Shown piece by piece: positions 21,913 to 33,964 of a stretch of 64,000 nt of DNA. The position numbers and the translations under genes are program-made. This DNA is from Microbacterium terregens (GTDB lineage Bacteria; Pseudomonadota; Alphaproteobacteria; Sphingomonadales; Sphingomonadaceae): positions 726,120 through 790,119 of the forward strand of contig NZ_BSEX01000006.1 of the NCBI RefSeq assembly GCF_027922045.1, given 5' to 3'. The stretch's first letter is position 1. The number at the start of each line of letters is the position of its first letter. The notes beneath the pieces were generated by a model. The model did no database searches. It had not been told where the DNA came from and worked only from the letters and a program-made list of their open reading frames with translations.

Positions 21913-23145
21913 ATGGCAACCGAAGTCCTTGTTCCCGTACTGGGCGAATCGATCACCGAAGCGACGCTGGGCGAATGGCTCAAGCAGCCGGGCGACCCCG
22001 TGAAGGCCGACGAGCCCATCGCCAGCCTTGAGACCGACAAGGTCTCGGTCGAAGTCCCCTCGCCCGTCGCGGGCGTGATGGGCGCGCATGCCGTCCAGCC
22101 GGGCGACACCGTCTCGGTCGGCGCGATGATCGCCACCATCGACGCAGGCGACGGCGCCCCGGCGAAGACGGCCGCGCCCGAGGCCGGCAGCACCGCTGCG
22201 GCTCCGGCTCCGGCAGCCGCCCCGCAGGAGGCCGGCGGCAACGTCGACGCCGCTGCGCTGTCGCCGTCGGTGCGTCGCGCGATCCTTGAGCATGGCGTCG
22301 ATCCGGCGACCGTGAAGGGTAGCGGCAAGGACGGTCGCCTGACCAAGGAAGACATCGTCGCCGCCGCGTCGAACAAGCCGGCCGCAGCCCCCGCCGCGGC
22401 CCCGGCGGCCGCTCCCGCAGCGGCGCCTGTCGCTGCCGGCGGTGAGCGTCGCGAAGAGCGCGTCAAGATGACGCGCCTGCGCCAGACCATCGCCCGCCGC
22501 CTGAAGGAAGCGCAGGACACCGCAGCCCTGCTGACCACCTTCAACGACGTCGACATGACCGCGGTCATCGAGGCGCGGACCAAGTACAAGGACCTGTTCG
22601 AAAAGAAGCACGGCGTCCGCCTGGGCTTCATGGGCTTCTTCGTGAAGGCCGCGTGCATGGCCTTGAAGGACATCCCCTCGGTCAACGCCTACATCGAGGG
22701 CGACGAGATCGTCTATCACGACTATGCCGACATCTCGGTCGCGGTCTCCGCGCCGCAGGGCCTGGTCGTGCCGGTGATCCGCTCGGCCGACCAGATGTCG
22801 GTGGCGCAGGTCGAAAAGACGATCGGCGACTTCGGCAAGCGCGCCAAGGAAGGCACGCTGAAGATGGACGAGATGAAGGGCGGTACCTTCACCATCTCCA
22901 ACGGCGGCGTGTTCGGCTCGCTGATGTCGACCCCGATCATCAACCCGCCGCAGTCGGCAGTGCTGGGCCTCCACCGCATCGAGGAGCGCCCCGTGGTCCG
23001 CAACGGCCAGGTCGTCGTCCGCCCGATGATGTACCTCGCCCTCAGCTACGACCACCGCATCATCGACGGTCGTGAGGCAGTGACCTTCCTCGCCGCGCTC
23101 AAGAACGCGATCGAGGACCCGACCCGCCTGCTGATCGACCTGTAA
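21913..23145 (+). CDS. sucB: Dihydrolipoyl succinyltransferase (E2 of 2-oxoglutarate dehydrogenase)
   Basis: Core of the 2-oxoglutarate dehydrogenase complex. The 410-residue protein has one lipoyl domain with Lys43 in ETDKVSVEV, an Ala/Pro linker, a peripheral-subunit-binding domain (about 112-150, [15 protein letters not shown]), a second linker made of APAA-type repeats (about 158-178), and the catalytic acyltransferase domain ending in [11 protein letters not shown] with His381 and Asp385. The start at 21913 follows AAGAGGAAG. After its stop codon come a repeat element and the GIY-YIG gene before lpdA. Confidence 0.96.
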
Positions 23146-23159
23146 GCTTCTGCCACCTT

Positions 23160-23237
23160 GTGCTCCTGCGAAAGCAGGAGCCCAGGGTGACGGAGCGCAC
23201 CGCTTGTGACCCTAGGCTCCTGCCTCCGCAGGAGCAC
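23160..23237. repeat. Family A palindromic element, copy 1
   Basis: Two 32-base arms (23160-23191 and 23206-23237) are inverted repeats with 28 of 32 positions matching. Each arm also folds alone into a 7-bp stem CTCCTGC/GCAGGAG with a 4-base loop (GAAA on the left), followed by a CCCAGGGT tail. It ends 42 bases before the first possible start codon of the GIY-YIG gene and contains a TAG stop (23213) in that gene's frame. Confidence 0.85.
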
Positions 23238-23278
23238 AGGACTGGGAGGCGAAGACGAAGGCCGGCTGCGTCTACATC

Positions 23279-23548
23279 ATGGCGAACCAGCGCAATGGGA
23301 CGACTTACACTGGCGTCACCAGCGACTTGCCCGCCCGGGTGTACCAGCATCGCACCGGCCTCGTGGACGGCTTCGCCAAGGAGCACGACTGCAAGCTGCT
23401 CGTCTGGTACGAGGCGCACGATGATCTGGAAGCCGCGCGGCATCGCGAACTCCAGATAAAGAAATGGAAGCGGGCTTGGAAAATCGCCCTTGTCGAGCGA
23501 TCCAACCCGCTGTGGAAGGATTTGTGGCCGGAAGTCGCCCGCCCCTAG
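23279..23548 (+). CDS. GIY-YIG domain protein, possibly missing its true start
   Basis: Small single-domain GIY-YIG nuclease-type protein. The ATG at 23279 gives 89 residues: NGTTYTGVTSDLPARVYQHR holds the YIG half (YTG) and the conserved Arg, and the helix LEAARHRELQIKKWKRAWK holds the conserved Glu. The GIY half reads GCVYIM but lies mostly upstream of that ATG (23264-23281), and no ATG, GTG, TTG or CTG exists in frame between it and the in-frame TAG at 23213. The gene therefore either uses an unusual start or has lost one. Its stop codon shares a base with repeat copy 2. It sits between sucB and lpdA in the same direction. Confidence 0.65.
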   Translation: MANQRNGTTYTGVTSDLPARVYQHRTGLVDGFAKEHDCKLLVWYEAHDDLEAARHRELQIKKWKRAWKIALVERSNPLWKDLWPEVARP

Positions 23549-23625
23549 TGCTCCTGCGAAGGCAGGAGGCCAGAGCCACGAGCGACACCGCCAGCAACCC
23601 TGGGCTCCTGCCTTCGCAGGAGCAC
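23548..23625. repeat. Family A palindromic element, copy 2
   Basis: Inverted repeat built like copy 1: GTGCTCCTGCGAAGGCAGGA at the left end and its near-complement ending GCAGGAGCAC at the right end. It begins on the last base of the GIY-YIG stop codon and ends 2 bases before the lpdA ribosome site AAGGAG (23627-23632). It therefore fills the whole gap between the two genes. Confidence 0.85.
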
Positions 23626-23638
23626 GAAGGAGTGAGCA

Positions 23639-25033
<1,395 letters not shown>

Positions 25034-25055
25034 TCGACAGGCCTCTGGTTTAGCG

Positions 25056-25090
25056 AAACGGCGTCGGTGGCACCCACCGGCGCCGTTTTC
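25056..25090 (+). terminator. Intrinsic terminator after lpdA
   Basis: Stem 25056-25070 (AAACGGCGTCGGTGG) pairs with 25074-25088 (CCACCGGCGCCGTTT) with one G-U pair and a 3-base loop, ending in TTTTC. It marks the end of the TCA supercluster. Its core is nearly the same as that of the terminator after rplT. Confidence 0.88.
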
Positions 25091-25155
25091 GTATCCGGCC
25101 CTGCCCGCTGCGCCGGGAGCAGTCCAAGACAACAAGCGCTCCGCCCACTGCCCCG

Positions 25156-25240
25156 GTGCTCCTGCTTGCGCAGGAGCACGGCTAGGCAGACGCCCGCCCG
25201 CTTTCTCTCGCGTGCTCCTGCGCAGGCAGGAGCCCAGGGC
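25156..25240. repeat. Family A elements, copies 3a and 3b
   Basis: A hairpin GTGCTCCTGC-TTGC-GCAGGAGCAC at 25156-25179 and a second unit at 25212-25240 with stem CTCCTGC-GCAG-GCAGGAG and CCCAGGGC tail. Together with the family B element they fill most of the gene-free stretch 25091-25450, which holds no other feature I can see. Confidence 0.75.
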
Positions 25241-25281
25241 CACCAGCGCTATCCTGGCGGCCTAAGCATACTTACATACCA

Positions 25282-25386
25282 CCCGTACCCCGGCGAAGGC
25301 CGGGGCCCAGTTGGGATAGCGTCTGAAAGGCGCGCCGTGATCGCCACGGCAGCGCAAGTGGGCTCCGGCCTCCGCCGGGGTACGAA
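25282..25386. repeat. Family B palindromic element, copy 1
   Basis: Left half with stem CCCCGGC-GAAG-GCCGGGG and tail CCCAGTTGGG; right half is its inverted, slightly degenerate copy (GTGGGCTCCGGCCTCCGCCG then GGGTAC). The outer ends CGTAC and GTACG are complementary. The layout is the same as in family A but the stem bases differ in pairs. Confidence 0.8.
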
Positions 25387-25450
25387 GAAGGAAGCCGGCT
25401 GGCCGGAGGAACCCGCTCGCACGCTGCTCCGACAGGCGGATTCTACGCCC

Positions 25451-26095
25451 TCACCCCTCCGCCGGCATCCGCGCCACCAGCAGCGTCAGCAACCCCGCCA
25501 GCACCGCCGCGATCCACACCGCGCCGTCGCCCGCCAGCTGGTATGCCCCCGCGCCGCCGAGCGTGCCGAACAGGAACCCGCCCCAGAACAGCAGGTCGCG
25601 CCACCAGCCGGTGCGCGGCCCCACGCCCATCAGGGCGTCCGCCAGCCGCTGGCCGAAGCGCACCAGCGTTCCCGTCATGTAGGTGAGCCCCACCTGCACC
25701 TCGCCGTTGCGGCTGAACACGGCGTTCTCCGCCCCCATGGCGCCGGCCAGCAGCACCAGCGCCAGCTGCCGCGGCCCGAACCCCAGGCACAGCGCCGCCA
25801 GCGCCAGCAGCGCCGTGACCAGCAGCATCACCGCCTCGCGCCCCCGTACGCCGCCGGCCCGTGCGGCGATCGCACCCCCCATCACGCCGGAGACGAACGC
25901 GAGGATCAGCGAGATCGCCGTATGCAGTTCGTCCTGGAGCCCGGACGCGATCGCCACGCCCAGCCGGGTGGTGTTGCCGCTCATGAAGGAAGCGAAGAAG
26001 CCGGCGAAGGCCGAAAAGGCGATGGCGTCGACGAAGCCGGCCAGCGCCGCGAGCAGCACGGCGACCAGCAGGACGGAGAGCGGAAGACGTTGCAT
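25451..26095 (-). CDS. DUF1275 (YoaK) family membrane protein
   Basis: Inner-membrane protein of unknown function, 214 residues, with about six hydrophobic segments. The family pattern GFVDAIAFSAFAGFFASFMSGN is at residues about 20-41, and GAENAVFSRNGEVQVGLTYMTGTLVR lies in the middle. The start at 26095 begins MQRLPLSVLLV, a plausible first helix. It is divergent from the next gene with 87 bases between, so both may share a promoter region. Role not known; YoaK-type proteins have been guessed to be transporters. Confidence 0.85.
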   Translation of the reverse strand: MQRLPLSVLLVAVLLAALAGFVDAIAFSAFAGFFASFMSGNTTRLGVAIASGLQDELHTAISLILAFVSGVMGGAIAARAGGVRGREAVMLLVTALLALAALCLGFGPRQLALVLLAGAMGAENAVFSRNGEVQVGLTYMTGTLVRFGQRLADALMGVGPRTGWWRDLLFWGGFLFGTLGGAGAYQLAGDGAVWIAAVLAGLLTLLVARMPAEG

Positions 26096-26813: not shown

Positions 26814-26843
26814 GCGCTCCTGCGAAGGCAGGAGCCCAGGGTC
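26814..26843. repeat. Family A single unit, copy 4
   Basis: One half-element only: GCGCTCCTGC-GAAG-GCAGGAG followed by CCCAGGGTC. It lies in the 69-base gap between the convergent TRIC and GNAT genes and may serve as the terminator of either. Confidence 0.75.
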
Positions 26844-29900: not shown

Positions 29901-29968
29901 GCGCTCCTGCGCAGGCAGGAGCCCAGAGCCAAGCATCCAGAATCCTAGGTTCCTGCGTCTGCTGGAGC
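29901..29968. repeat. Family A palindromic element, copy 5, between groES and groEL
   Basis: Left unit CTCCTGC-GCAG-GCAGGAG with CCCAGAGC tail, right unit degenerate (CCTAGGTTCCTGCGTC then TGCTGGAGC). It fills most of the 107-base gap between two genes that must be co-expressed, so its RNA hairpins will be part of the groESL message. Confidence 0.78.
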
Positions 29969-33876: not shown

Positions 33877-33964
33877 GTGCTCCTGCGCAGGCAGGAGCCC
33901 AGGGCCTCAAGCGCCGCACGCCGCGGTTCTGCTTGGCCCTGGATTCCTGCCTGCGCAGGGATAC
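33877..33964. repeat. Family A palindromic element, copy 6
   Basis: Left unit GTG-CTCCTGC-GCAG-GCAGGAG with CCCAGGGC tail; right unit its inverted copy, partly degenerate (GGCCCTGGATTCCTGCCTGC then GCAGG). It lies in the 323-base gap 33740-34062 between the convergent M3 peptidase and lactonase-like genes. Apart from this element and the terminator hairpin the gap shows nothing recognisable. Confidence 0.78.

Follow-up and report, generated by a model that had tools for sequence, protein, structure and literature searches.

Around a subfamily of small stand-alone GIY-YIG nucleases, we found hairpins resembling repetitive extragenic palindromes (REPs) whose stem sequence matches on the two sides of the gene and is inherited together with the nuclease lineage. 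This makes the nucleases strong candidates for the enzyme partner that a large bacterial repeat family has been missing. The explanation that we favor, and hold to be probable, is that the subfamily is the dedicated partner of the CGTC-tagged REPs and their sphingomonad variants, with gene and repeats forming an autonomous small element. The analysis started from a 64,000-nucleotide stretch of DNA (the window) and was extended to related genomes and to the wider set of nuclease loci.

The gene and its repeats form a unit of 466 bp (23160–23625) between sucB, the 3′ part of which lies at 22690–23145 with the stop at 23145, and lpdA (23639–25033, with its ATG at 23639), all on the plus strand. 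The first-pass annotation had described such a repeat-gene-repeat unit with the second copy starting on the last base of the stop codon, and the coordinates agree: the TAG occupies 23546–23548, and its last base is the first base of copy 2. It had described the copies as palindromic; two copies do bracket the gene, and each of them, ~78 bp long, resolves into two hairpins placed head-to-head in opposite orientation, the sequence between them being partly complementary. As direct repeats, the copies (plus strand; 23160–23237 and 23548–23625; defined by sequence, copy alignment, and folding) are 79% identical, and as inverted repeats, they are 79% complementary. The first pair, in plus and then minus orientation, contains the hairpins GCTCCTGC-GAAA-GCAGGAGC (23162–23181) and GCTCCTGC-CTCC-GCAGGAGC (23216–23235); the second pair, in the same order, contains those at 23550–23569, with a mismatched outer pair, and at 23604–23623. 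The two 85-nt stretches that correspond to the copies folded with z scores of −8.2 and −9.5, and none of the 200 shuffles of either folded equally well. No Rfam family matched positions 22900–25500 at gathering scores.

Similar hairpins occur elsewhere in the window, where exact CTCCTGC-type hairpins number nine, four of them in the cassette. Dispersed elements of this type, none assigned to a strand, are two hairpins without a nuclease (25159–25176 and 25215–25232, within 25158–25233), a single hairpin (26817–26834), and two pairs in which the second hairpin is degenerate (29904–29967 and 33880–33961). A pair of another stem type, CCCCGGC, lies at 25287–25385, also unstranded and without a nuclease, and its second hairpin is imperfect.

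That the bracketed gene encodes a GIY-YIG nuclease, as first annotated, was confirmed by a profile search (PF01541, 53.3 bits against a cutoff of 22.6). The stand-alone domain takes up nearly the whole protein, and a separate DNA-binding region is absent. Residues Y7, Y18, R28, and E65, which we take to be the catalytic residues of GIY-YIG nucleases, are invariant among 22 aligned sequences including that of the window, and so is N84, an asparagine late in the domain. An AlphaFold2 model of the protein reached a mean pLDDT of 96.3, and the nearest solved folds were the UPF0213 protein BH0048 (1zg2, E 9e-4) and, more weakly, Slx1 (6seh, E 0.035). Homing-endonuclease profiles matched relatives of the nuclease weakly and the window's own protein not at all, while none of the four subfamily proteins tested reached the NCBIfam cutoffs. 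An anti-phage role was considered and dropped, as PADLOC gave no match for the window's protein; one relative (L043) had two weak matches.

The ATG at 23279, 41 bases downstream of copy 1 and named at first pass as the first ATG of the gene, is probably not the real start, since a protein beginning there would lack the first GIY tyrosine, a residue that none of the 22 aligned sequences varies. Upstream of it, the frame is open to 23216 and contains no ATG, GTG, or TTG. Five bases downstream of a putative Shine–Dalgarno-like GGGAGG (23244–23249, plus strand; read from the sequence beside that of relatives), an ACG at 23255 aligns with the ATG start of the relatives, and we infer it to be the start codon. 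The gene would then have 97 codons from the probable ACG to the TAG (23255–23548, plus strand), an assignment resting on PF01541, the alignment with relatives, and the AlphaFold2 model. Among nine nuclease genes read at the sucB–lpdA junction, the start position holds ACG in five (the window, L033, L004, L097, and L093), ATG in three (L036, L102, and L082), and GTG in one (the second gene of L035), and L103, from the same clade, has an ATG one codon earlier. The ACG in five genes of one junction may be a conserved noncanonical start, which would hold nuclease expression low. For seven of these junction genes, dN/dS was ~0.10–0.45 in 19 of 21 pairs, the other two being saturated, and these ratios indicate purifying selection. 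In L045, the nuclease has apparently lost one base after a GTG start and its domain frame has no start codon nearby; some nuclease copies may therefore be decaying.

The pairing of nuclease and hairpins is general in the subfamily and specific to it. With hairpins defined by a stem of at least 7 bp and a loop of 4–5 bases, and with 150-bp windows, 38 of 51 subfamily nucleases had hairpins on both sides. Controls drawn from the window and the 40 stretches that contain these nucleases gave 32 of 556 for other genes and 1 of 129 for other small genes, the control gene lists being approximate because the gene caller misses sucB. At a stricter setting requiring 8-bp stems, the counts were 23 of 51, 19 of 556, and 0 of 129, respectively. 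It had been proposed at first pass that such repeats should be more common around small GIY-YIG genes than around other genes of their size, by analogy with REPs and their RAYT transposases, and that a lack of such enrichment at other loci would count against the idea; the enrichment was found, and the analogy of gene–repeat pairing is supported. Among the named loci (the best 80 of 584 confirmed, partly overlapping with unnamed ones such as L107 and L039), hairpins stood on both sides of 45 of 76 nucleases, compared with 3 of 1,520 random placements of equal length and 0 of 760 block-shuffled flanks, which excludes chance for the family. Both-sided hairpins were found for 45 of 77 genes in the named loci and for 19 of 32 in the phylum sample; of the 109 genes with full flanks in the two sets, 64 had hairpins on both sides, 29 on one, and 16 on neither (three dropped at contig ends, only the 30 best phylum-sample loci included, and identical copies kept).

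The same held across 61 genomes, comprising the nearest genome compared (G001) and relatives, 44 of which had at least one match at E 1e-4 when more distant GIY-YIG genes are counted too. Matches of at least 44 bits amounted to 91 genes in 41 genomes, of which 62 had hairpins on both sides and 84 on at least one; these counts used 200-bp windows, against 150 bp for the controls of the 51 nucleases, and may include a broken gene twice. In the same genomes, 0 of 21 more distant GIY-YIG genes (21 of the 29 weaker matches) had hairpins on both sides, with two upstream and three downstream hits. Flanking hairpins are thus not supported as a general property of GIY-YIG genes.

Left and right hairpins of a locus match, and stem type and nuclease lineage are inherited together. 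Of 89 loci in which both flanks carry oriented hairpins, 78 had the same sequence left and right over the seven inner stem bases of the pair that matched best, whereas shuffling the partners 1,000 times gave a mean of 11.8 and a maximum of 24 identities. Among 157 nucleases retained after removing copies with identical nuclease sequence, the most common arrangement was a gene inside one head-to-head pair (39 cases); the form seen in the window, with a pair on each side, occurred in 8, and 19 were free of hairpins within 160 bp. Mapped on the tree of these nucleases, stem type (98 rows and 13 types) required 35 changes vs. a mean of 58 and a minimum of 51 for shuffled types, with none of 200 shuffles as low. 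The tree rests on few alignment columns and leaves many forks open, and near-copies inflate the clustering. Loop length (136 rows) required 16 changes vs. a shuffled mean of 24.7 and minimum of 19, and stem type in 39 named loci alone required 14 vs. a mean of 21.3 and minimum of 18. The clade of the window, with five rows and a support of 97, contains no stems other than those ending in CCTGC, and a neighboring group has CCCCGGC. Eight nucleases without an oriented hairpin group together on the tree (L055, L108, L110, L154, L156, L166, L178, and L212), L154 alone among them having an unoriented hairpin; the group is perhaps domesticated or tied to another repeat.

Among the best 80 of the 584 loci, the nuclease belongs mostly to alpha-, beta-, and gammaproteobacteria. 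Single records among them are labeled Planctomycetota, Nitrospirota, Myxococcota, Campylobacterota, and Chloroflexota, labels that may be wrong because many records are metagenome bins. At E 1e-15, the nuclease was present in 75 of 299 Pseudomonadota genomes. Outside sphingomonads, it is common for the accompanying hairpins to have the sequence cgtc-ATTCCCGC-GAAG-GCGGGAAT-ccag or one close to it, the form of a CGTC-tagged REP, and repeats of this type occurred in 40 of the 75 nuclease-bearing and 42 of the 224 nuclease-free Pseudomonadota genomes (P = 2e-8, uncorrected for phylogeny).

Within the genus, 107 of 121 genomes carried the nuclease at E 1e-15, with one to seven matches each. CCCCGGC repeats were wholly absent from 10 of the 14 nuclease-free genomes and from 17 of the 107 nuclease-bearing ones (P = 4e-5, uncorrected for phylogeny). 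In the set of 61 genomes, repeats of a given stem type were more numerous where a nuclease typed to the same stem was present; for 37 genomes of the genus, the P values of this stem-matched repeat load, again uncorrected for phylogeny, were 0.002 for CCCCGGC, 0.003 for TTCCCGC, and 0.02 for CTCCTGC. The CTCCTGC type was the weakest, the genomes richest in it (88, 73, and 33 copies) having no nuclease typed to it. A strict rule that genomes without the nuclease have no repeats was rejected by G001, which has 73 CTCCTGC and 76 CCCCGGC repeats (149 in total) and no nuclease of the subfamily. Similarly, 4 of the 11 genomes with at least 20 CGTC-type repeats in the phylum sample had no nuclease at E 1e-15. 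The repeats may outlive a lost nuclease.

The sucB–lpdA junction illustrates how these elements differ between close relatives. G001 shares 46% of sampled words with the window, and the last 151 residues of its sucB product, like those of G088 and G104, are 99–100% identical to those of the window. At the junction, these three genomes have a nuclease-free CCCCGGC-type pair, with interiors that look related by eye. The exchange is local: the window and G001 are 98.5% identical over the last 200 bp of sucB and 98.0% identical over the first 200 bp of lpdA, while the junction itself measures 493 bp in the window and 129 bp in G001 and differs in stem type, so that the difference is confined to the intergenic stretch. 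Because the flanks remain ~98% identical to those of G001, the data do not support a long recombination tract as the source of the junction. The cassette looks gained in the lineage of the window because the three close relatives share the nuclease-free pair, and the sequences suggest that the gain took place by replacement of a repeat pair. Whether related strains lack the cassette had been posed as a check at first pass; the nearest ones do lack it, but their site is not bare, being occupied by a pair of the other type. At least eight other genomes have a nuclease at sucB–lpdA, and match coordinates point to more. A nuclease at this site in relatives free of repeats had been named at first pass as evidence against an association; in all eight junctions (L003, L004, L005, L013, L082, L093, L097, and L102), at least one such hairpin lies beside the nuclease.

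About 5 kb upstream, at mdh–sucD, G104 has a CCCCGGC-type nuclease cassette; the sequence there is different in the window, G001, and G088, and no such hairpin was seen in it. The related strains are a mosaic at these junctions, since the contents of mdh–sucD and sucB–lpdA differ between the window, G001, G088, and G104. In the genus at large, both junctions are very variable, holding nuclease cassettes, bare pairs, or other sequence within conserved surroundings. A second switch of type was observed between the close genomes L051 and L052, which have CCCCGGC and CTCCTGC-like pairs, respectively, at the same site (5757–5855 in L051). To look for insertion footprints, we compared five repeat sites of the window with their counterparts in G001 and, for three sites, in G088 as well. 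Against G001, two were unchanged, one was deletion-like, and two were ambiguous, and none of the five showed a clean insertion into an empty site or a target duplication. At the deletion-like site, the pair at 25287–25385, the interior is missing from G001, where one hairpin's left arm abuts the right part of the second hairpin, which looks like a deletion between hairpin arms.

Under the favored explanation, the gene with its flanking repeats would be the autonomous form and the dispersed nuclease-free pairs the nonautonomous form of one element. The nuclease would recognize repeats of its own stem type when they form a hairpin or cruciform and cut the repeat DNA at that structure, and host repair would then copy the repeat-nuclease-repeat unit, or a bare pair, into the cut repeat, as with homing endonucleases. 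Repair templated by another repeat would yield few gene-bearing and many bare copies. Given a protein that consists almost entirely of the nuclease domain and is tied to long palindromes of matching sequence, cutting of the extruded repeat would be the simplest activity. GIY-YIG enzymes are hydrolytic; their cuts are used by homing introns and some retroelements, and the Slx1 branch cuts branched DNA. To our knowledge, GIY-YIG enzymes do not join DNA strands, and the nuclease would therefore not transpose DNA alone. Such a cut-and-repair process would account for genes inside a pair, the left–right match, the correspondence of stem type and lineage, and the replaced pair at sucB–lpdA. The nuclease probably spreads its repeats. 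The 149 repeats of the nuclease-free G001, the repeat-rich genomes of the phylum sample that lack the nuclease, the nucleases with no flanking hairpin, the weak CTCCTGC result, and the lack of an insertion footprint count against this explanation. For the larger claim, that a dedicated stand-alone GIY-YIG nuclease makes and spreads CGTC-type REPs by cutting their hairpins for host repair to copy and so defines a separate class of mobile element, we judge the chances to be even.

Among the alternatives, the one that survives best is that a homing endonuclease uses preexisting REP pairs only as landing sites, while the repeats are made and spread by other means. The prevalence of genes inside a single head-to-head pair, the gene-free pairs of relatives at sucB–lpdA, and the existence of nuclease-free genomes with many repeats would all be expected from it. 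A pure passenger, however, would predict neither the higher load of matching repeats alongside a typed nuclease nor the absence of CCCCGGC repeats from 10 of the 14 nuclease-free genomes of the genus, and the vacant pairs of the nearest relatives are of a stem type other than that of the window's cassette. We regard it as unlikely. Still less likely is a role in host maintenance, in which the enzyme trims or resolves the cruciforms of the repeats, and genomes full of repeats need the nuclease and keep its gene beside them. The low copy number in the 107 genomes, the purifying selection, the fold similarity to Slx1, and the correlation with repeat load are compatible with such a role, but it leaves unexplained the bracketing of the gene by matching repeats, the changing positions of the gene, and its absence from the repeat-rich G001.

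The hairpins lie directly 5′ and 3′ of the gene and would be cotranscribed with it, and they might act as RNA elements of the nuclease transcript, in autoregulation or mRNA protection, without a role in DNA movement. We consider this very improbable: copies of these hairpins also lie scattered away from the gene, only four of the nine exact ones in the window being at it, and the left–right symmetry fits DNA ends. Coincidence, through intergenic crowding of repeats and small genes or through ordinary recombination of flanking genes swapping junction alleles, could draw on the general variability of TCA-operon junctions, which in many species are filled by other sequence or by small open frames. 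Chance and crowding, however, are rejected by the small-gene and random-placement controls (1 of 129 and 3 of 1,520), identity of the flanks to the nearest relative remains ~98% right to the edge of the junction, and we give coincidence hardly any credence.

The preferred reading, a nuclease dedicated to its own repeats, would explain what a widespread group of GIY-YIG genes does and provide natural stem variation for studying substrate choice by a minimal GIY-YIG domain. The larger claim, if true, would add a transposase-free counterpart of the REP–RAYT system across Pseudomonadota and in records of several other phyla, with a readable code linking the lineage of the nuclease to the stem sequence. 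With a lineage-matched nuclease, the question of how CGTC-tagged REPs spread can be put to the test directly, using one small protein and short oligonucleotides. In literature covering few subscription journals and no bioRxiv preprints, no paper contained both GIY-YIG and "repetitive extragenic palindromic," and none of the papers listed was seen to link GIY-YIG genes with these repeats.

Of the known systems, REP/RAYT (TnpA-REP, GTAG-tagged REPs, or REPtrons) is similar in having a low-copy gene flanked by dispersed short palindromes that occur as single copies and as head-to-head pairs. The palindrome type of RAYTs follows the enzyme lineage, and in the system described here, too, matching repeats flank the enzyme gene and their type follows its lineage. 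The defining feature is different: a RAYT is an HUH Y1 transposase, and the enzyme here is a GIY-YIG nuclease, with repeats tagged by CGTC or its variants instead of GTAG. With GIY-YIG homing endonucleases of the I-TevI type, known from a group I intron, the system shares the catalytic domain, weak profile matches in relatives, and a gene placed inside sequence that its nuclease may target, but the window's nuclease has no separate DNA-binding region and no intron was seen. Prokaryotic Slx1-like and UPF0213 small GIY-YIG proteins resemble it in their single-domain size and are its nearest solved folds. According to the consulted part of a 2006 survey (PMC1564403), the Slx1 lineage lacks a characteristic C-terminal asparagine, whereas the nuclease of the window has the late invariant N84, a putative equivalent of that residue. 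The 21 more distant small GIY-YIG genes differ in not being bracketed by hairpins.

The closest repeats are those of the CGTC-tagged REP superfamily, which is related to the dRS3 of Neisseria. The superfamily includes the RPE of Rickettsia. Its description (Di Nocera 2013, PMC3733652) reports the repeats from five phyla with most tails fitting CCA, and states that they are not associated with transposase genes and lack a dedicated transposase, leaving the cause of their spread open. CGTC REPs have stems of 8–9 bp and loops of 4–5 bases and are dispersed predominantly as head-to-head pairs; for the CTCCTGC type, dispersal is seen in the nine exact hairpins of the window and the 73 copies of G001. 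Three of the four hairpins in the window's cassette have an 8-bp stem and a 4-base loop, and three are followed by a CCA tail, the hairpin at 23216 being followed by CTA. At the tag position, the four hairpins have TTGT, CTGT, TAGT, and TCGT in place of CGTC (or TGTC or CCTC), and their stems start with GC in place of the A and T that are almost invariable in CGTC REPs. Because stem, loop, and mostly the tail agree but the tag and the AT start do not, the hairpins of the window are best classified, by their sequence, as a variant and not as strict members of the CGTC REPs, while the repeats around many relatives of the nuclease outside sphingomonads have the full CGTC tag.
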